Assembly: GCA_020431405.1 (NCBI GenBank)
Contig: JAGQIK010000430.1
Span: forward strand, 1-42,429
Direction of reading: 5' to 3'
DNA: 42,429 nt
Origin: Myxococcales bacterium
GTDB taxonomy: Bacteria > Myxococcota_A > Polyangia > GCA-2747355
Below the pieces are notes generated by a model. The model did no database searches. It saw only the letters and a list, made by a program, of their open reading frames with translations, and was not told where the DNA came from. A program made the translations under genes and the position numbers. Shown one piece after another: positions 1 through 40,004 of the stretch (position 1 is its first letter; the number at the start of each line of letters is the position of its first letter).

Positions 1-2826
1 CGCCGCGCGCACGCTGTCGAGGTCGTCGGGCTCGCAGAGGAACACGTTGTCGCCCATGTACTCCGCGACCGTACCCCAGCTTCCGGCGACGACATTGACG
101 CCGTGCCAGGCGGCTTCGAGCGTGACCAGCCCGGGAAGCTCGAACCAGCTCGGCAGGGCGTGCACGCGCGCGGCGCGGAAGGCGCCATGAAGCTCGGCGC
201 GCGAGATGCGCCCGGTGAAGATCGTTGGCGCGCGGCGCGGCCAGCGCTTGCACAGCTCGGCGTAGGCCGGCTGCGGCGTTTGGCTATCGACGAAGACCAG
301 CGGCACGTCCTCGTCGGCGAGCGCCGCGAGCAGCGTCAGCTGGTTCTTGCGATTCTCCAGCCGCCCGACGCAGAGCACGAAGTCCTCGACACCAAAGCGC
401 TCGACGAAGTCACGGGCCGCCGACGGCGCGTCGATATCGTCGAGGGCGGGCGGCGAAAAGCCGACGCGCACGACGTCGACCGCGCGCACGGCGCGAAGCT
501 CGGTCTCGATGCGGCGCGCCTCGCGCTCGCCGCTGGCGGTCAGCGCCGCGGCGTGTTGCGTGATGAACGTCGCGCGCTCGGCGCCCGGCCGCTCGGCACG
601 CGCGAACAGCGCGTCGACGGCGCCGTACGTCTCGTCGAGCAGCTCGCCGAAGCGCGCCGCCGTGGTCTCGCCGCTGGCCAGCGCGCGCTGCGCCGCGCTG
701 ATGGTGGCCATCGAGCGCGGCAGATAGCGGCGCTGATCCTCGTACAGCACCGTACAGACGAAGGGCACCTGCTGGCGTGCCGCGTTGAGCGCGAAGGGCT
801 CCTCGGCGTTGACGACGTGCACCAGATCGTAGCCGCTCACGTCGAGCGCCGCGTCGCTGCTGAAGTCGACCTGATGACCGCGCGCCTCGAGCGCGCGCTG
901 CGTCTCGCGCACCACCTCGCTGTCACCGCCGGGCGCCGAGAAGACCGTCGGGCGCGCCTGCAGCAGCACGCGGCGCGTGCGCTTGGCCTGCTTGCGGCGC
1001 TGGGCTTTGGCGTGACCGCGCGCGCCTTTGCCTTGGCGGCGCGGCTGCGCGAGGGCGGCCAGCCGCTCGGCGACCAGCGCGCCGACACGCGCCTCGCTGA
1101 ATCGCTCGATGATCTGTGCGCGCCCGCGCTCGGCCTTGGCCTCGGCCACATCGCGCTCGCTGACGACTCGTCGCATCAGCTCGGCGAGGTGCGCGGCGGA
1201 CGGCTCGGCCCACATGTGCCCGGCGTAGAGCGGGTTGTCGCGCTGCTGGCGCTCGCCGACGGGCACGAGGCGCTCCACATCGACGAGGTAGGCGTTGTCG
1301 TCGTCGAGAAACTCGAGGTGGCCGCTCCAGCGCGTGGCGATCACCGGGCGACGCATCAGCAGCGACTCCGACAGCGGCAGGCCCCAGCCTTCGCCGCGCG
1401 TGGGCAACACGAAAGCATCGCCGGCGCGATAGAGCGCCGGCATCTCGTGCGCTGGCACCATGCGCTCGATCAGCTCGATACGTGGGATACGCGCCGGATC
1501 GCGGTGAAGCTCGTCGCGCACGAACTCGACGAGCTGCTGTCTGAGCGGCGGCGCGTCGCCCGTGACGCCGCCGCCCTGGTAGGCGCGGATCAGCAGGCGC
1601 ACGTCGTCCTCGGCGCGAAATGCGTCGAGGTAGGCGCGCAGCAGCACGTCCCAGCCCTTGCGCTCGGTCCACTCGAAGATCGAAAGGAACGTAAAGCCGG
1701 CCGCTTCGCCGAAGCGCAGCGGCTCTGTCTCGTCGGGACGATAGGCGGCCGGATCGAAGGCGTGCGGGATGACGTGCACGCGCTCGCGCGCGACGCCCGA
1801 GCGCACGAAGGTCTCGAGGTTGAAGTGCGACGGCACCCAGACCTCGTCGGCGGGCGCCAGCGCGTCGACCCACGGGGCGGGGATGCGGTCCGTCTCGAAC
1901 GCGGTGTAGACCACACGCGAGGCGTAGCTTCGGTTGCGCGAGAAGCGCTCGGCGACGAAGTCCTTGCCCTCGGCGCTGGCCGGCGGATGGTGCATCACGT
2001 AGGTGCCGCCTGCTGGCACGAGGCTCAGCTCGGCGAGGCGCGCGGCCTGCTCGGGCGCGACGGGCGTGCGCAGCCGCGCGGTGCGGCGCACGCCGTCGAA
2101 GAGCGCCTCGACGACGCAGCCGTCGGCCTCGTCGTCGTCGATATCGTCGTCATCGAAGGAGACTTTGCAGTCCCCCCACAGCGGCTGGGCACGCACGCGC
2201 ACGCCGACAGCGTCGAGGCCGCGCACGTAGGCGCGCGCCGCGGTGGCGTAGCCGCTGGGGCCAAACAGCGGGCCCTCCCAGCTCACGCGCAGCGTGTCGG
2301 GGGCGATGTCGCCGTGACGCGCGAGCATCGGCTGCGTGTAGGCGGCGACGCACATGTTGGAGATGTCTTCGCCGTCGGAAGCCGCGTCGGCGATGGTGAA
2401 GCCGAGCTCGACGAGCAGCGCCGAGAGCGCCGGCTTGTCGAAGATCACGTAGTGGAAGTTGCCGCGATAGTCCTGACCGCCATAGAGGCGGTCGACGATG
2501 GGGTCAATGCCGATCGCCTCGCCGTCTTCACGGCGCCAGCCGGGCGGGCGCTCGCGATAGAGCCGCACCATGCCTTCGAGGTCGGGCGTGCGAATCCACA
2601 GCCGGCCGCCGGGGCGCAGCAGCCGTCGCCACTCGCCGAGCACCGCCTTCACCTCGCGCCACGAGATGTGCTCGAGGATGTCCTGCGCCACGATCTCGCT
2701 GGCGCAACGATCGGCGAGGGGCAAACGCGTGAAGTCGGCGACGAGATCGACGCCGGGCCACGGGTTGAAGTCGACGTTGACGTATCCCGCCCTGATGTCG
2801 CGGCCGCAGCCGAGGTTCAGCTTCAT
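1..2826 (-). CDS. Methyltransferase-glycosyltransferase-glycosyltransferase fusion (3' end outside window)
   Basis: At least 942 residues are visible and no stop is reached before the window edge. Residues 1-165 are a class I SAM methyltransferase: the protein opens with MKLNLGCG (motif I), followed by the acidic VNVDF strand, AQDILEHI and LRPGGRLWI. Residues about 185-600 form a GT-B glycosyltransferase of the GT4 type, with a C-terminal donor-binding half (FTFLSIFEWTERKGWDVL; VLPTRGEGWGLPLSESL). After a Lys/Arg/Gln linker near 600-630, a second GT4-like domain runs to the edge (LCVGRLENRKNQLTLLAAL; ALPSWFELPGLVTLEAAWHG). It is probably cytoplasmic and builds or methylates a glycan. It diverges from another glycan operon and has its own sigma-54 promoter, which fits modification of flagella or surface polysaccharide. 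The start is secure because motif I is at residue 4. There is no Shine-Dalgarno sequence. Confidence 0.88.
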   Translation of the reverse strand, partial: MKLNLGCGRDIRAGYVNVDFNPWPGVDLVADFTRLPLADRCASEIVAQDILEHISWREVKAVLGEWRRLLRPGGRLWIRTPDLEGMVRLYRERPPGWRREDGEAIGIDPIVDRLYGGQDYRGNFHYVIFDKPALSALLVELGFTIADAASDGEDISNMCVAAYTQPMLARHGDIAPDTLRVSWEGPLFGPSGYATAARAYVRGLDAVGVRVRAQPLWGDCKVSFDDDDIDDDEADGCVVEALFDGVRRTARLRTPVAPEQAARLAELSLVPAGGTYVMHHPPASAEGKDFVAERFSRNRSYASRVVYTAFETDRIPAPWVDALAPADEVWVPSHFNLETFVRSGVARERVHVIPHAFDPAAYRPDETEPLRFGEAAGFTFLSIFEWTERKGWDVLLRAYLDAFRAEDDVRLLIRAYQGGGVTGDAPPLRQQLVEFVRDELHRDPARIPRIELIERMVPAHEMPALYRAGDAFVLPTRGEGWGLPLSESLLMRRPVIATRWSGHLEFLDDDNAYLVDVERLVPVGERQQRDNPLYAGHMWAEPSAAHLAELMRRVVSERDVAEAKAERGRAQIIERFSEARVGALVAERLAALAQPRRQGKGARGHAKAQRRKQAKRTRRVLLQARPTVFSAPGGDSEVVRETQRALEARGHQVDFSSDAALDVSGYDLVHVVNAEEPFALNAARQQVPFVCTVLYEDQRRYLPRSMATISAAQRALASGETTAARFGELLDETYGAVDALFARAERPGAERATFITQHAAALTASGEREARRIETELRAVRAVDVVRVGFSPPALDDIDAPSAARDFVERFGVEDFVLCVGRLENRKNQLTLLAALADEDVPLVFVDSQTPQPAYAELCKRWPRRAPTIFTGRISRAELHGAFRAARVHALPSWFELPGLVTLEAAWHGVNVVAGSWGTVAEYMGDNVFLCEPDDLDSVRAA

Positions 2827-2839
2827 AGGCTCGCTGGCG

Positions 2840-2855
2840 AGCAAGGCGCGTGCCC
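2840..2855 (-). promoter_or_regulatory. Sigma-54 promoter of the MT-GT-GT gene
   Basis: Read on the minus strand this is GGGCAC-GCGCC-TTGCT, one mismatch from TGGCAC-N5-TTGCW, with the invariant GG and GC ten bases apart. The predicted +1 falls about 3 nt before the ATG, so the transcript would be nearly leaderless. A degenerate activator palindrome begins 38 bp upstream and a perfect one 58 bp upstream. Confidence 0.7.
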
Positions 2856-2893
2856 GCCAGCAACGCCGAAATCCGCTACATCACGTCGCCGCA

Positions 2894-2932
2894 GCGCCGA
2901 TAGGCCGACACGAGCGTCAAAGCTTTGACGCT
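2894..2932. promoter_or_regulatory. Paired activator palindromes between divergent sigma-54 promoters
   Basis: Bases 2913-2932 are a perfect 20-bp palindrome, AGCGTCAAAGCTTTGACGCT, with core GCGTCAA-N4-TTGACGC at 2914-2931. A degenerate copy (GCGCCGA-TAGG-CCGACAC, 9 of 14 core bases) lies exactly 20 bp away at 2894-2911. The perfect copy ends 41 bp before the rightward -24 box. The degenerate copy is 38 bp from the leftward one. The arrangement looks like an upstream activating sequence for a sigma-54 activator serving both genes. Confidence 0.78.
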
Positions 2933-2972
2933 GCCGCGCGTTTCTCCGTACGGATTCACAGCGAGATCGGGT

Positions 2973-2988
2973 TGGCACCGGCGTTGCT
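2973..2988 (+). promoter_or_regulatory. Sigma-54 promoter of the TPR1-radical SAM operon
   Basis: TGGCAC-CGGCG-TTGCT matches the -24/-12 consensus at every conserved base. The predicted +1 is near 2999, which gives a leader of about 37 nt with a hairpin and a strong Shine-Dalgarno sequence before the ATG at 3036. Confidence 0.9.
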
Positions 2989-3035: not shown

Positions 3036-3710
3036 ATGTCCGAATCCTCTCGCGGCCCTCTGGTCGAAGAGATCGCAGCGCGCATCAGCGCCGGCGAGCT
3101 CGACGAGGCCATCGCCGCCGTCATCGCCCGCATCCGCGCCGAGCCCGAGCGCGCTGCGGCGCTGCACGCGCTCGCCGAGCACGAGCTGGAGACCGGCAGC
3201 TTCGAGGTCGGCGAGCTGATCATCGAGGCGCTGGTGCAGCAAGCACCCAACGCCGAGCGCCTCAGCGACCTCGGCGCGATCAAGCACGTCAAGGGCGAGC
3301 ACACGCTGGCCGAGACGCTGCTGCTCGAGGCGCTTTCTTTCGAGCCGAGCCACCAGCTGGCGCTGCTCAACATCGCGGCGCTGTATCTCGACTGCGGCCG
3401 CGTCGGCGACGCCATGCGCGCGTGCGGCTCGCTGGTGCAGGCCATCGTCCAGACCACGCGAGCCGGCGAGGCTGACCAGGCCGTCTCGGCCGAGCTGTTG
3501 TTTCAGCTCGCCGAACGGCTCGCGCCCGTCGCGCCCGACCAGGCCGACCGCGTCGCCGCCGTCGCCGTCGGCCGTCTCGATGTCGACGCCCCGCCGCGCC
3601 AGGTCAAGCTCGTCGTGCCCGCGCCCCAGCGCGAGCGCGCCGCGCGTGACGCGCAGCCCCGCCCCCAGTCAGACGCCGTGTTTTCCATCGGCGGAGGAGC
3701 CGCATCATGA
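3036..3710 (+). CDS. Tetratricopeptide-repeat protein TPR1
   Basis: A 224-residue soluble protein without a signal peptide. Residues 1-165 are helical TPR-like repeats (for example LSDLGAIKHVKGEHTLAETL and LALLNIAALYLDCGRVGDAM). The last 50 residues are Pro/Arg-rich and look disordered. The ATG was chosen because GAGGAGG sits 5 nt upstream. An in-frame extension upstream would run through the sigma-54 promoter. It is the first gene of an operon with the radical SAM protein (4-nt ATGA overlap), a CgeB-like glycosyltransferase and an HDOD-GGDEF protein. A related TPR protein near 39.5 kb has the same promoter type and leader hairpin. TPR proteins commonly scaffold glycosylation or assembly complexes. 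The exact partner here is unknown. Confidence 0.85.
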   Translation: MSESSRGPLVEEIAARISAGELDEAIAAVIARIRAEPERAAALHALAEHELETGSFEVGELIIEALVQQAPNAERLSDLGAIKHVKGEHTLAETLLLEALSFEPSHQLALLNIAALYLDCGRVGDAMRACGSLVQAIVQTTRAGEADQAVSAELLFQLAERLAPVAPDQADRVAAVAVGRLDVDAPPRQVKLVVPAPQRERAARDAQPRPQSDAVFSIGGGAAS

Positions 3711-4975
3711 CCGTGCGCGAGTACCACGTCGCCGTCTGCAACGAAGGCGCGCGTGAGACCTTCGAGCTCGTCTTCGATATCTACCCGCAGCAGGCGCCGG
3801 CACACCCCGAGCGCCACTACGGCCACTGGAACAAACGCATCGAGCTCGACGCCGGCGAGCAGCGAGACATCGTGGTGCGCTGGGACGCGGCGCGCAAAGC
3901 GGTGGCTATCGACGGCGAGCCGGCCGACAGCAGCTGGCGCGGGCCGCTCGACGAGTCCGGCCGCTACGACGTGTCATTTCTGCTCTACCGGCAGGGGCAG
4001 GTCGTCACCGAGCACAAAATGCGCGAAGATGTCGGCGGCAGTGCGTCGTCTGCATCTTCTATCGTGCTGCCCTGCGGCGGCGATGGCGCCGTGCGAACGC
4101 AGCCGCAGAGCCAGCTGCGCTCGGCGGTGTGGTTCATCACCTGGCGCTGCAACTACAAGTGCGACTACTGCTGGGAGGTTCAGCGCATCCGCCGCGGCGA
4201 GATGAAGGCCGAGCCCTACGAAGAGACGCAGAAGTGGGTCGACGCCTGGAACCGGCTGCGCCCGCAGACGCTCGACATCTCGGGCGGCGAGCCGTTTCTG
4301 CAGCCCGGCTTCATCGACATGCTCGAGGCCTTCGACGACAGCATCCGCGTCGCCATCACCAGCAACATCTCGAAGGACATCACCGAGTTCGTCCAGCGCA
4401 TCAAGCCCGAGAAGGTCTTTTCGATGACGCTGAGCTTCCACCCGACCCAGAAGGTGGCGTGGGACATGTTCCTCGGCAAGGCGTTGCTGCTCAAGAACCG
4501 CGGCTTCAACGTCACCGTCAACTTCGTCAGCTGGCCCGAGCAGCTGTGGCTGATCCCGATCTACAAGAAGGTCTTCGAGACGAGCGGGCTGCGCTTTCAC
4601 GTCGACCCCTACGCGCCGACGCCGCACTACCCCTTCACGCTCAGCGACGCCGAGCGCGAGTTCCTCAAGCCCTTCGTCGGCGGCGACCGCGAGCACTTCT
4701 TCGGCGAGACCGAACGCTACAACGTCGACTGCAGCGGCGGCTACGAGCACCTCAACGTGCACCCCGACGGCGACGCCTACCGCTGCATCAGCGACAAACA
4801 CTTCGGCAAGCCGAAGGTCGGCAACATCTTCGACCCCGACTTCTCGCTCAGCCCCAAGTTCACCTTCTGCGATGACTACTGGCGCTGTCCCGGCTGCGAC
4901 AAGGACAAGGTGCGCGTCGAACGACGCCCCGAGCCCTGGGCGCCGCGCGATGACAGCGGCTCGATGACCCTCTAG
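3707..4975 (+). CDS. Radical SAM protein with SPASM-like C-terminus
   Basis: 422 residues. The radical SAM cluster motif CNYKCDYC is at Cys148/152/155, followed by the SAM-binding SGGEP at 192-196. The C-terminal third has a further Cys set (VDCSGGYEHLNVHPDGDAYRC, then FCDDYWRCPGCDKDK), consistent with an auxiliary Fe-S cluster of SPASM or twitch type, and the HPDG phrase is typical of that region. Residues 1-125 form an extra beta-rich N-terminal domain that I do not recognise. Start and stop are coupled to TPR1 by ATGA. In a glycan operon this enzyme may modify a sugar or a peptide. The substrate cannot be read from the sequence. The family assignment is firm and the reaction is unknown. 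Confidence 0.88.
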   Translation: MTVREYHVAVCNEGARETFELVFDIYPQQAPAHPERHYGHWNKRIELDAGEQRDIVVRWDAARKAVAIDGEPADSSWRGPLDESGRYDVSFLLYRQGQVVTEHKMREDVGGSASSASSIVLPCGGDGAVRTQPQSQLRSAVWFITWRCNYKCDYCWEVQRIRRGEMKAEPYEETQKWVDAWNRLRPQTLDISGGEPFLQPGFIDMLEAFDDSIRVAITSNISKDITEFVQRIKPEKVFSMTLSFHPTQKVAWDMFLGKALLLKNRGFNVTVNFVSWPEQLWLIPIYKKVFETSGLRFHVDPYAPTPHYPFTLSDAEREFLKPFVGGDREHFFGETERYNVDCSGGYEHLNVHPDGDAYRCISDKHFGKPKVGNIFDPDFSLSPKFTFCDDYWRCPGCDKDKVRVERRPEPWAPRDDSGSMTL

Positions 4976-5000: not shown

Positions 5001-6256
5001 GTGTCTCGCAAACGCCGCAGGCCGCACAAGCCGTCTCGCCGCACGCTGCCAGAGCTGAGCTCGCGGCTGCGCGGCGCCCTGGCCTACCGGCGCTTCGTCG
5101 CGCCGCCCTACACCATCGCGTTGCTCGATGGCCGCTACCATCTGCACGGCGAGTGTACCCGCGCGCTGACACGCCTCGGACACCGCGTGCTGCCCATCGC
5201 GGTGGATGCCGCGTCGCCAGCGAACACGGTCAAGGCGCTGCTCTATGCCTGCATCGAGCAGCGCGTCGACATGCTGCTGTCGATCAACCAGATGGGCTTC
5301 GACGAAGGCGGCCACCTCGGCACGCTGCTCGAGCAGATCGAGCTGCCGGTGGCCTCGTGGTACGTCGACAGCCCGCACTTCGTGCTGCGCGGCGCGCCGC
5401 TGCCCGCGGCGGCGGTCTCGACGGTCTTTGTCTGGGAACGCTCCTTCGTCGCTTCGCTGCGCGCGTTGGGCCTGCAGGACGTGCACTACCTGCCGCTCGC
5501 CACCGACCCCGAGGTCTTTCGTCCGCTGGGCTATGGCGAGTCGCGCGCGCTGTGCTTCGTTGGCGACAGCATGAAGCGCGCCTGCGCCAAGTGGCAGGCG
5601 CGCCTCGGCCACAACGCGCGCCGTCAGGCCGGCGACGTCGCCGCCGCGCTGCTCGCCGACCGTCAGCGCGATCCCTTCGAGGTCGTCGGCACCGAGCGCG
5701 ACGAGCGCCACGCCTGCGACATCGTCGCGGCCGGCACCTGGCGCGCGACGCGCGACTACCGCGCCGGCCTGCTGCGCGCCATCGACAGCCCAGCGCTGTG
5801 CGTGCACGGCGATGACGGCTGGGGCGAGCAGCTCTCGCAGGCGCGGCTGTGCGGGCCCGTCAACTACGGCGCGCCGCTCGCCGCGCTCTACGAGAGCAGC
5901 GCGATCAACATCAACGCCACCAGTCTGCAGATGCAGAGCGCCGTCAACCAGCGCGTCTTCGACGCCCCCGCGTCGGGCGGCTTCGTGCTGAGCGACGCGC
6001 AGTCGGACCTGCTCGAGCTGTTCGAGCCCGGCCGCGAGATCGCGGTCTACCGCGACGCCGACGAGCTCGCAGCGCAGGTCGAGCGCTTTCTGCACGACGA
6101 AGAAGCCCGCCGCATGATCACCGCGCGTGCGCGCGCGCGCGTGCTGGCCGAGCACCGCTACGAGCACCGCCTGCAACGCGTGCTCGATGTGGTCAGCGCT
6201 CGTCATGCGTCCCCGGCCGTGCGCAGAACGTCTTGCGAGCCCTCTGGAGCATCACC

Positions 6257-6266
<10 letters not shown>
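5001..6266 (+). CDS. CgeB-like glycosyltransferase (DUF3880-type N-terminus)
   Basis: 421 residues. After a basic N-terminal tail, residues about 38-180 resemble the DUF3880/CgeB N-terminal half (ALLDGRYHLHGECTRALTRL; LSINQMGFDEGGHL; VASWYVDSPHFVLRG). Residues 180-410 look like the donor-binding half of a GT-B transferase: YLPLATDPEVFRPLGY, then NINATSLQMQSAVNQRVFDA and SGGFVLSD, ending in a helix with an EHRYEHRL motif. Proteins of this kind occur in spore-coat and flagellar or surface glycan loci. It follows the radical SAM gene by 25 nt and overlaps the next gene by 10 nt, so it is translated from the same mRNA. The acceptor is unknown; flagellin or a surface protein is plausible. Confidence 0.82.
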
Positions 6267-15598: not shown

Positions 15599-16104
15599 TG
15601 CATCACCAACATGCGGATATACACTGCGACAACCGTGCCATCGCCGTAGACGTCGTCGCAGATCCTCAGCAGCTTCTTCTTGAGGCCCTTCTTCGACTGC
15701 GCCGCCTGCAGGTCGCTGACACGCAGGCTGCTCAGATAGATGATCGCCTGGTCACGAAAGCGCACTTGCAGCCGCTTGTCCGCCTCGCTCGGCGGCGCGT
15801 CGAACTCGAGCTCGATGGCGAGCTTGAGGTAGCGCGTGGCGCCGGGCTCGTTGAGGTTGACGATGAAGGTCGGCACCGTCACCGAGGGACCGAGCTTGTC
15901 TCCGCGCCGACCGCTAGCGCGTTTGCCGCGCTTGCGGCTGCTCTTGGCCTTGCTGCCGCCGTCGCCGTCGCCGCCGCCGCCGCGGGCGAAGGCGAAGTAG
16001 GCGCCGCCGCCACCGCCGCCGAGCAACACCACGACGAGGATGATGATCAGAGGCAGCTTGCTCTTCTTGACCGGAATCTGGTCTTCAGCTTGAGCATCAG
16101 CCAT
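15595..16104 (-). CDS. fliL: FliL stator-associated basal body protein
   Basis: 169 residues. A short cytoplasmic tail is followed by one membrane helix (LPLIIILVVVLLGGGGGGAY), a Gly/Asp/Lys-Arg linker and the periplasmic FliL domain (about 70-169: VTVPTFIVNLNEPGATRYLK, LAIELEFDAPP, FRDQAIIYLSSLRVSDLQ). The C-terminus ends VYIRMLVMQ, matching the family's final beta strand. FliL rings surround MotB and support stator activity. It sits directly after the two motB-like genes, and its ATG overlaps the stop of the upstream gene. Confidence 0.93.
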   Translation of the reverse strand: MADAQAEDQIPVKKSKLPLIIILVVVLLGGGGGGAYFAFARGGGGDGDGGSKAKSSRKRGKRASGRRGDKLGPSVTVPTFIVNLNEPGATRYLKLAIELEFDAPPSEADKRLQVRFRDQAIIYLSSLRVSDLQAAQSKKGLKKKLLRICDDVYGDGTVVAVYIRMLVMQ

Positions 16105-16879
16105 CGCGCTTCTCCTTGTGGTCGTGCGTCGGCGCGCGCAGCACTACGCGAACCCAGCGGCGACGCGACTTGACGGCGGTCGCTGCAACGACCGCGCCCG
16201 CGCGGCGCAGCTTGCGGACCAGGTAAGCCGAGCGCCAGATCGCCAGCGCCCAGGGCGAGTGGATGCGCGACGCGACGCCATGCTCGCGCACCGGCGTGAC
16301 GACGCTCTCGACGTGTCCCGCCAGCTGTCCGACAGCGCGCACCAGCTCGTGGGCCAGCTCGCGCGCCTCGACCTGTCCGCGCTCGAAGAACAGCGGCAGG
16401 TTGAGCCACAGCTCGCGCCCGCGCGGCGTGCGCACCACGCGCACGGGCGGTCCGACCTCGAGGATGCGCGCCAGGTCCGTGCGCAGCGGCGACATGCCGA
16501 CCATGCGGCGGTTGATCTTCAGCGCGCGCTCTAGGCGCATCGAGGCCTGATGGATCGTTGCCAGCTTGCGCTCGACGCTGGCCTCGAAGTAGCCCGTACC
16601 GCTGGCCAACCGCCGGTTGAGCAGCTTCATCGGGTTCATCTGCGCGTGCTGCGTGTCGACCTTCTGCACGCGCTGGTTGCCCTTGCTGCTGCCGAGCGAG
16701 CCGAGCGCACCGCGAAAGAAGCCGAAGGTCTCGCGCAGCCGCTTGGAGTCCATCGACGACATCGAGATCAACAGCACGAAGAACGTGATCAGCAGCGTCA
16801 GCACGTCGGAGAAGGTCAGCAGCCACTCGAGCGACGAGCCCTGCTTCTCTTCAGCAGCCTTCTTGGCGCGCTTACTCAC
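16097..16879 (-). CDS. MotB-like stator protein 2 (keeps the ion-carrying Asp)
   Basis: 260 residues from a GTG that overlaps the stop of motB1 by 8 nt. The N-terminal helix WLLTFSDVLTLLITFFVLLI is a canonical MotB plug/TM segment with Asp25 at the proton-binding place (Asp32 in E. coli MotB), followed by SMSSMD. The periplasmic part resembles a weakened OmpA-like domain: LPLFFERGQVEARELAHELV and a degenerate peptidoglycan-binding motif (SPWALAIWRSAYLV in place of N-x-x-LS-x-x-R-A). The C-terminus is very basic. It is the complement of motB1, which lacks the Asp but keeps a better OmpA domain. A longer in-frame reading upstream would run through motB1 and is rejected. Confidence 0.88.
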   Translation of the reverse strand: MSKRAKKAAEEKQGSSLEWLLTFSDVLTLLITFFVLLISMSSMDSKRLRETFGFFRGALGSLGSSKGNQRVQKVDTQHAQMNPMKLLNRRLASGTGYFEASVERKLATIHQASMRLERALKINRRMVGMSPLRTDLARILEVGPPVRVVRTPRGRELWLNLPLFFERGQVEARELAHELVRAVGQLAGHVESVVTPVREHGVASRIHSPWALAIWRSAYLVRKLRRAGAVVAATAVKSRRRWVRVVLRAPTHDHKEKRDG

Positions 16880-17600
16880 TGTCGAGCTCCAGCCGCCCGC
16901 GCAGGCGCTTGCCACCGACCTCGATCTCGACGTGACGGCTGTTGACGCCGTCGCGTACGCCCATCGCCACCGCGCGCACCAGCGCCGGCGGCAGCTTCGC
17001 CGCGCGCACCAGGTAGTCGGCGACACGCGCCGCGCGGCTGCCCGAGAGCTCCACGTTCGAAGGGAAGTGCACCGGCCGCGTCGGATCGGCGTAGCCGCGC
17101 ACGGTGGCGCGCACGCGATAGCGCCGCGCGATCTTGGCCACGCCGTCGAGCAGCGGGAAGGCGCTCGGATGCAGCACCGTGGTGCCGGGGCGCAGCAGGA
17201 TGCGATCGTTGAAGACGATGCGCAGCCCGTCGGCTGTCGGGATCATCGACGCCGAGTTGGTGCCGTGCACCAGACGCGTGCGGCTGACCAGCGCCTGCGC
17301 CTCGCGCAGCATCTTGCCGCCCTCGGCGCCCTGCTGCATCTCGAACGGCATCTCGCGGTGCAGGCTCTTGCCGCTGTTGCTGTCGGGGTTTTCGCCGCCG
17401 AGCAGGATGCCGAAGCTGCCGCGCAGCGAGCCGAGCGCGCGCCGCTGGCGGTTGTTGTCGACGACGGCGATGGAGTTGAGCAGGATGAAGAACGACAGCA
17501 GGATCAGGTTCAGCGATGTGAACATCACCGCGAACGCGTCTTCAGCGCTCATGCCGCCGCCGCCGCCGCCGCCAGCGGCTTTTTTGCGTCGCTTGGCCAT
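16872..17600 (-). CDS. MotB-like stator protein 1 (plug Asp replaced by Ser)
   Basis: 242 residues. A Lys/Arg tail and a run of seven Gly precede the membrane helix FTSLNLILLSFFILLNSIA. Aligned with MotB2 on the Phe and Phe-Phe landmarks (each ten residues apart), the proton-binding Asp is Ser29 here. The periplasmic half is a recognisable OmpA/MotB peptidoglycan-binding domain: ILLRPGTTVLHPSAFPLLDG, ATVRGYADPT, and NVELSGSRAARVADYLVRAA containing N-x-x-LS-x-x-R-A. It should anchor to the wall but not carry ions alone. It lies 3 nt after motA. It may form a heterodimer with MotB2 or be a structural, non-conducting stator part. Confidence 0.88.
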   Translation of the reverse strand: MAKRRKKAAGGGGGGGMSAEDAFAVMFTSLNLILLSFFILLNSIAVVDNNRQRRALGSLRGSFGILLGGENPDSNSGKSLHREMPFEMQQGAEGGKMLREAQALVSRTRLVHGTNSASMIPTADGLRIVFNDRILLRPGTTVLHPSAFPLLDGVAKIARRYRVRATVRGYADPTRPVHFPSNVELSGSRAARVADYLVRAAKLPPALVRAVAMGVRDGVNSRHVEIEVGGKRLRGRLELDSE

Positions 17601-18447: not shown

Positions 18448-18485
18448 GCGTCAACGTCAGGCGAGCAGCGTCAAAGCCATGACGC
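18448..18485. promoter_or_regulatory. Activator palindromes upstream of motA
   Basis: GCGTCAA-AGCC-ATGACGC at 18468-18485 matches the 14 core bases at 13. A half site, GCGTCAA, sits at 18448-18454, exactly 20 bp nearer the promoter and 40 bp from the -24 box. This is the same geometry as at the other sigma-54 promoters in the window. Confidence 0.75.
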
Positions 18486-18636
18486 TCCGCGATCCACAAC
18501 GTCAGAGCGGCGCGGGAGTTGAGTGATGCGGCGGGGCTGTGGGCGGAAAAGAAGCGGCGCCGGGCGCGCCCGACCAAGGTACGCGCCCGACGCCGTGGGG
18601 GCTGGACGAAGACAAGACGAAGAGGAGAGGTGGGAT

Positions 18637-30413: not shown

Positions 30414-30429
30414 AGCAAGCCACGTGCCA
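30414..30429 (-). promoter_or_regulatory. Sigma-54 promoter of the flgB-flgE operon
   Basis: On the minus strand TGGCAC-GTGGC-TTGCT matches the -24/-12 consensus at every conserved base. The predicted +1 near 30403 gives an almost leaderless mRNA for the GTG at 30401. Confidence 0.88.
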
Positions 30430-30468: not shown

Positions 30469-30505
30469 TCGTCAGGCTGTTGACAGATCGACGGGCGCTT
30501 GACGC
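30469..30505. promoter_or_regulatory. Activator palindromes upstream of the flgB operon
   Basis: TCGTCAG-GCTG-TTGACAG (30469-30486) and TCGACGG-GCGC-TTGACGC (30488-30505) each match the core at 10 of 14 bases. They are 19 bp apart, and the nearer one is 39 bp from the -24 box, as at the other promoters. Confidence 0.62.
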
Positions 30506-31727: not shown

Positions 31728-31777
31728 TGCAAGGGGCGGGCCGGCGCGAGGTTGGTGGAGGGTCAAGGTGTTGACGC
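31728..31777 (-). promoter_or_regulatory. Strong activator palindrome and weak sigma-54-like site before the receiver gene
   Basis: GGGTCAA-GGTG-TTGACGC at 31760-31777 matches the operator core at 13 of 14 bases. On the minus strand CGGCCC-GCCCC-TTGCA (31728-31743) has a perfect -12 box but a poor -24 box, and only 16 bp separates the two. The palindrome is convincing. The promoter is not. Confidence 0.45.
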
Positions 31778-31965: not shown

Positions 31966-33321
<1,356 letters not shown>

Positions 33322-33439: not shown

Positions 33440-33455
33440 TTCAAGCGCGGTGCCA
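33440..33455 (-). promoter_or_regulatory. Weak sigma-54-like site upstream of the activator gene
   Basis: TGGCAC-CGCGC-TTGAA on the minus strand has a perfect -24 box, but the invariant -12 GC reads GA. The nearest palindrome is 55 bp upstream, outside the usual spacing. It could be a relic or a weak autoregulatory promoter. Confidence 0.25.
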
Positions 33456-33510: not shown

Positions 33511-33613
33511 TCGTCACGGCGCTGACGCCGAGCGTCGGGCTGCCGACATCGACGCCCGTCAACGCGTTGACCGGCGCGGCGCCAATGGCCTGACGGCGTC
33601 AGCCGATCGACGC
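33511..33613. promoter_or_regulatory. Activator palindrome array between the activator gene and neuB
   Basis: Three copies of the operator: TCGTCAC-GGCG-CTGACGC (33511-33528, 11 of 14), CCGTCAA-CGCG-TTGACCG (33556-33573, 11 of 14) and GCGTCAG-CCGA-TCGACGC (33596-33613, 12 of 14). The last ends 41 bp before the neuB -24 box, and the middle one is exactly 40 bp further out. The 386-bp gap holds these sites and the two candidate promoters, and no gene. Confidence 0.7.
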
Positions 33614-39832: not shown

Positions 39833-39848
39833 AGCAACCCACAGGCCA
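39833..39848 (-). promoter_or_regulatory. Sigma-54 promoter of TPR2
   Basis: On the minus strand TGGCCT-GTGGG-TTGCT has a perfect -12 box and TGGC at -24, with GG and GC ten bases apart. Transcription from TTGCTTCGA onward begins like the TPR1 promoter. Confidence 0.72.
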
Positions 39849-39887
39849 AGATCTGCGCTGTCTGATCCCGAGGGATTAGCGCGCGCG

Positions 39888-39925
39888 GCGTCAACGCGTC
39901 GACGATCTCGTCGGACCCTTGACGC
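39888..39925. promoter_or_regulatory. Activator palindromes upstream of TPR2
   Basis: GCGTCAA-CGCG-TCGACGA (39888-39905, 12 of 14) begins 39 bp from the -24 box. TCGTCGG-ACCC-TTGACGC (39908-39925, 11 of 14) lies exactly 20 bp further out. Confidence 0.72.
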
Positions 39926-40004
39926 CGAGGGCGCGGCGCCGCGTCGCGATCTCGCGCATCGATAGAGAGCGCCAGCGGCTCGCGGCTTGCTTCATGGCCA
40001 GGGC

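Follow-up and report, generated by a model that had tools for sequence, protein, structure and literature searches.

The window, by which we mean the whole stretch of 42,429 nucleotides that was analyzed, carries near its left end a short control region, 2840-2988, from which genes depart in both directions (Table 1). The leftward gene encodes a protein with a methyltransferase and two glycosyltransferase domains, and the rightward set encodes a TPR protein, a radical SAM/SPASM-like protein and a glycosyltransferase. In G003, a genome of the same order, the homologue of this glycosyltransferase lies around 7 kb from the flagellin genes, and a link with flagellin modification is therefore plausible. 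For the glycosyltransferase, radical-SAM and methyltransferase genes alike, that link is drawn from neighborhood alone. A clear orthologue of the TPR protein was not found in the relatives, and the orthologous divergent locus was found in no close relative.

The same window harbors a flagellar cluster, recognized by Pfam matches to flgB, flgC, fliE, fliF, fliG, fliH, fliI and fliK, with further matches to flgD, flgE, motA, motB, fliL, fliM, fliN and fliO. The MotB plug domain is matched by two overlapping open frames within 16097-17600. Rfam gave no matches in the window. Another contig, C462 of G000 (L153, L154), contains three flagellin genes, and no operator-paired sigma-54 promoter is found there.

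Table 1. Features of the divergent control region and of the related sites and genes in the window; transcription starts are predictions
Feature	Position	Strand	Remarks
Methyltransferase with two GT4 glycosyltransferase domains	1..2826	-	leftward gene, cut by contig end; ATG 2826, leader 3 nt from predicted start
Leftward sigma-54 promoter GGGCAC-GCGCC-TTGCT	2855-2840	-	predicted start 2829
Degenerate second copy GCCGATAGGCCGAC	2896-2909 (14-mer) or ~2893-2912 (20-mer)		uncertain
Perfect 20-bp palindrome AGCGTCAAAGCTTTGACGCT	2913-2932		operator core GTCAAAGCTTTGAC at 2916-2929
Rightward sigma-54 promoter TGGCAC-CGGCG-TTGCT	2973-2988	+	predicted start 2999
TPR protein	3036..3710	+	rightward gene; GAGGAGG ribosome site, then ATG 3036
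Radical SAM/SPASM-like protein	3707..4975	+	rightward set
Glycosyltransferase	5001..6266	+	homologue in G003, 53% identical
motA sigma-54 promoter TGGCAC-AGCGG-TTGCT	18407-18392	-	
motA-motB-fliL operon operator	18470..18483		within second palindrome copy, 18467-18486
Consensus sigma-54 promoter, flgB-containing operon	30414..30429	-	GTG 30401, 2-nt leader
Operator upstream of operon containing flgB-flgC-fliE-fliF	30471..30484		
Receiver-domain gene sigma-54 promoter	31728..31743	-	
Operator upstream of receiver-domain gene	31762..31775		gene ATG 31712
FleQ-like sigma-54 activator	31966..33321	-	degenerate receiver, AAA+ with GAFTGA, Fis-type HTH with NRTTLVEK
Two exact operators before activator gene	33513..33571		starts 33513, 33558
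Second divergent pair, leftward sigma-54 promoter	39833..39848	-	
Second divergent pair, two 7/8 operators	39890..39923		20 bp apart
Second divergent pair, rightward sigma-54 promoter	39976..39991	+	M15 peptidase, GTG 40005

Promoters and palindrome of the control region

A preliminary description of the region had proposed two sigma-54 promoters facing away from each other, and these are borne out in sequence, in coordinates and in spacing. Judged against TGGCAC-N5-TTGCW, both have the correct GG-N10-GC spacing, and of a maximum score of 16 the rightward promoter reaches 15.5 and the leftward 15.0. The genome contains a single copy of rpoN, and a negative control, the sigma-54 genome pattern with an incorrect -24/-12 spacing, has no matches in the window. 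The start positions given are predictions that assume the customary 12-nt distance.

The perfect 20-bp palindrome described between the promoters is likewise present. At up to 3 mismatches it is found in the 11.2-Mb genome only at 2913-2932 and 18467-18486, both within the window, and in 100 shuffles of the window no match is expected by chance. The palindrome was also considered as an intrinsic terminator, which was rejected because no T run lies 3' of it. Its core is composed of inverted GTCA and TGAC half-sites spanning 14 bp.

A degenerate copy had also been described 20 bp away. At its 20-bp center-to-center distance this copy matches 5/8 of the operator-core positions and 10/20 of the 20-mer; a 5/8 match arises at 3.3% of offsets, which places the copy alone within chance. 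It may nonetheless be a real operator, since secondary half-sites are enriched approximately 20-23 bp from the main operator across the regulon and its offset is -20. With distances taken from the 14-bp cores, 43 bp separate the perfect copy from the rightward -24 box and 60 bp separate it from the leftward; between the degenerate copy and the leftward box there are 40 bp. The reported distance of 38-41 bp between each promoter and its nearer copy is thus about right if the weak copy is counted, and otherwise becomes 43 and 60 bp.

A probable flagellar operator and its candidate activator

The motif GTCA-N6-TGAC occurs seven times in the window, compared with 0.48 expected from a Markov model, and the control spacers from 0 to 20 other than N6 occur 0-1 times each. 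At least four sigma-54 promoters in the window have an exact operator upstream; the gap between operator and promoter is 62 bp for motA, 41 bp for the flgB-containing operon and 18 bp for the receiver gene. The motif thus precedes flagellar operons, namely those of motA and flgB here, and in G003 a REC gene, flgB, fliL and a further operon.

These sites closely resemble those of known flagellar regulators. The FleQ operator has the consensus GTCaNTAAAtTGAC (PMC6120874, PMC10723142), and for the FleQ/FlrA-like regulator DVU2894 of Desulfovibrio vulgaris the predicted operator is yGTCA-N6-TGACr, found at flagellar genes and upstream of DVU2894 itself (PMC4641369). The half-sites and the 14-bp length are the same as those of FleQ in Pseudomonas and FlrA in Vibrio, although the center of the operator contains GC here and is AT-rich in the FleQ operator. 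The suggestion that the palindrome is the operator of the activator is supported by this common core.

The gene at 31966-33321, which had been put forward as the likely activator, is supported in that role by the FleQ-like AAA+ domain and recognition helix of its product. FleQ is its best solved relative (E ~1e-83), the alignment spans the RTTLVEK of the recognition helix, and the two proteins have in common an AAA+ domain with GAFTGA and an HTH ending in RTTLVEK. As is expected of the FleQ/FlrA type, the receiver lacks a phosphorylatable aspartate: Gln stands in place of the Asp, and Glu in place of the conserved Lys. Both residues are kept in the G003 activator (L072:11214-12542). FleQ contacts c-di-GMP through an LFRS stretch and an ARN that follows its Walker A box; the alignment shows neither to be conserved, and by these residues the protein differs from FleQ in the strict sense. 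A further difference from FleQ is that distant orthologues of the activator in the class bear a true receiver domain. The activator's own gene, like that of DVU2894, is preceded by the operator, here in two exact copies, through which autoregulation is possible. DVU2894 differs in having GAFTHA and few predicted targets, whereas the operator here heads structural operons as well as surface-modification genes. The region upstream of the activator gene, 33513-33611, contains two exact and two 7/8 operators, and the sole sigma-54-like box seen there, at 33455 (TTGGCAC...TTGAA), lacks the -12 GC.

The association extends across the class. In G003 an orthologous activator with 57% identity lies in a syntenic flagellar cluster, alongside four operator-promoter pairs. 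The flagellar loci of around 45 class genomes contain 102 N6 sites, of which 26 precede a sigma-54 promoter, counted when the site lies within 110 bp upstream of it, against 16 of 293 for the 20 other spacers (p ~3e-10). A whole-genome pattern of the operator followed at 20-112 bp by TGGCA-N6-TTGC gave 73 pairs in 318 genomes of the class, compared with 3 for the reversed control. What the computation shows directly is the motifs themselves, how rare they are in the genome, and that they recur and go together with sigma-54 promoters.

Predicted near-leaderless sigma-54 starts

The 3-nt leader of the leftward gene at first seemed an objection to the leftward promoter. It fits a pattern that is found throughout the class, since in class loci an ATG or GTG lies at +2 to +6 of 60 of 103 sigma-54 promoters, where 13 are expected (p ~1e-27). 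In loci of other phyla the corresponding figure is 4 of 45, with 8 expected. Most of the near-leaderless frames (54/58) are open for at least 36 codons, and they are found in 31 of the 39 genomes with a match. The genes concerned, named by inspection of their N-termini, include flgB, flgG, fliL, fliG and genes for CsrA-like and FlbD-like proteins. Within the window, start codons are found 2-5 nt after a predicted sigma-54 start at 2826, 10665, 30401, 31712 and 40005. The M15 peptidase promoter, with its 7/8 operator and 2-nt leader, is found again in G003.

It is likely that the sigma-54 promoters of this class, those of the flagellar regulon included, are placed so that transcripts would start 2-6 nt before the start codon. 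Such a placement would systematically couple activator-dependent sigma-54 transcription to leaderless translation. The leaderless genes of bacteria known so far have been ascribed to sigma-70-type boxes, and in Actinobacteria and Deinococcus-Thermus the promoter likewise puts the mRNA start at or near the start codon (PMC3160421); the difference here is that a sigma-54 -12 box takes the place of the sigma-70-like -10 box. No description of a sigma-54 counterpart was found in the literature searched, which is not proof of absence.

Probable control of two promoters from one site

We consider it probable that 2840-2988 belongs to a flagellar regulon of the FleQ/FlrA type, as a divergent sigma-54 control element, and that its operator is read by the product of 31966-33321. 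A dimer of this protein would bind the GTCA-N6-TGAC palindrome at 2916-2929, further subunits, possibly on the weak second copy, would complete an AAA+ oligomer, and the oligomer would remodel the sigma-54 polymerase at both promoters, the palindrome being symmetric and so able to serve both directions. The rightward output would be the TPR, radical-SAM and glycosyltransferase genes, and the leftward output the methyltransferase-glycosyltransferase gene, from an mRNA expected to be near-leaderless. The products probably act in surface or flagellin modification and would be produced together with the flagellum. The binding and activation, like the roles of the genes and the length of the leader, are predictions from the DNA.

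Divergent control from one common site, as proposed for this region, is supported by recurrence. Six of the 10 divergent sigma-54 pairs in class loci enclose an operator that matches at 7/8 positions or more; the window holds two of these, and G100, G172, G278 and G208 have one each. The second pair in the window, 39833-39991, sits between a TPR gene and the M15 peptidase gene. The preliminary description had one dimer pair activating both promoters, of which the common operator is supported; the weakness of the second copy leaves the pair itself uncertain.

A refinement of this explanation, compatible with it, is that two dimers are required, one per promoter, on the perfect and the degenerate copy. 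We regard this as a real possibility that falls somewhat short of an even chance. It would agree with the regulon-wide enrichment of secondary half-sites and with the two operators, exactly 20 bp apart, of the other divergent pair in the window; set against this are the 5/8 match of the copy here, several regulon operators that have no visible partner, and the ability of a single palindrome to serve both sides.

The compact placement was thought to be unusual, and this was not borne out. Operator-to-promoter gaps in the regulon are mostly 40-110 bp, so the spacing is within its normal range, and in D. vulgaris the distance from a sigma-54 promoter to the site of its enhancer-binding protein (EBP) is in most cases no more than 100 nt (PMC4641369). 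The exact compact divergent layout is nevertheless rare, being found in 1 of 318 genomes. The gaps show a weak 10.5-bp periodicity (R = 0.31, p = 0.012, or 0.03 without near-duplicates), which is no more than suggestive of helical phasing.

Could the rightward promoter alone be real, the leftward box having arisen by chance and the leftward gene being transcribed from elsewhere? The leftward -24 element reads GGGCAC instead of TGGCAC, the perfect palindrome lies at a distance of 60 bp, and the start codon follows the predicted start by 3 nt without a ribosome site. Yet only 0.00055 matches scoring at least 15.0 are expected on one strand of an 80-position stretch, a chance of ~5.5e-4 for such a box, 60 bp falls inside an occupied range of class spacing (59-66 bp), and near-leaderless starts are the norm for sigma-54 promoters of the class, with four others in the window. 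We therefore judge this explanation improbable. Slightly less probable again is that another regulator, an EBP or a repressor, binds the palindrome while the flagellar activator acts elsewhere: a large genome is expected to encode many EBPs, others of which could read the site, and FleQ itself is able to repress (PMC10723142), but the palindrome is nearly confined to the flagellar cluster, fits a FleQ/FlrA-family operator and, in G003, accompanies the orthologous activator.

The wiring favored here, a FleQ/FlrA-type operator common to two divergent sigma-54 promoters, is of a known kind, and novelty would come only with confirmation of the near-leaderless transcripts. Its interest is that operator, activator and targets would together provide a readable flagellar regulon for a large and poorly studied flagellated lineage, probably of myxobacteria, a regulon that appears to reach surface-modification genes through a common divergent switch. 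If the near-leaderless starts are true, leaderless translation in bacteria would extend beyond sigma-70-type promoters and would be supplied by a tightly gated sigma factor.
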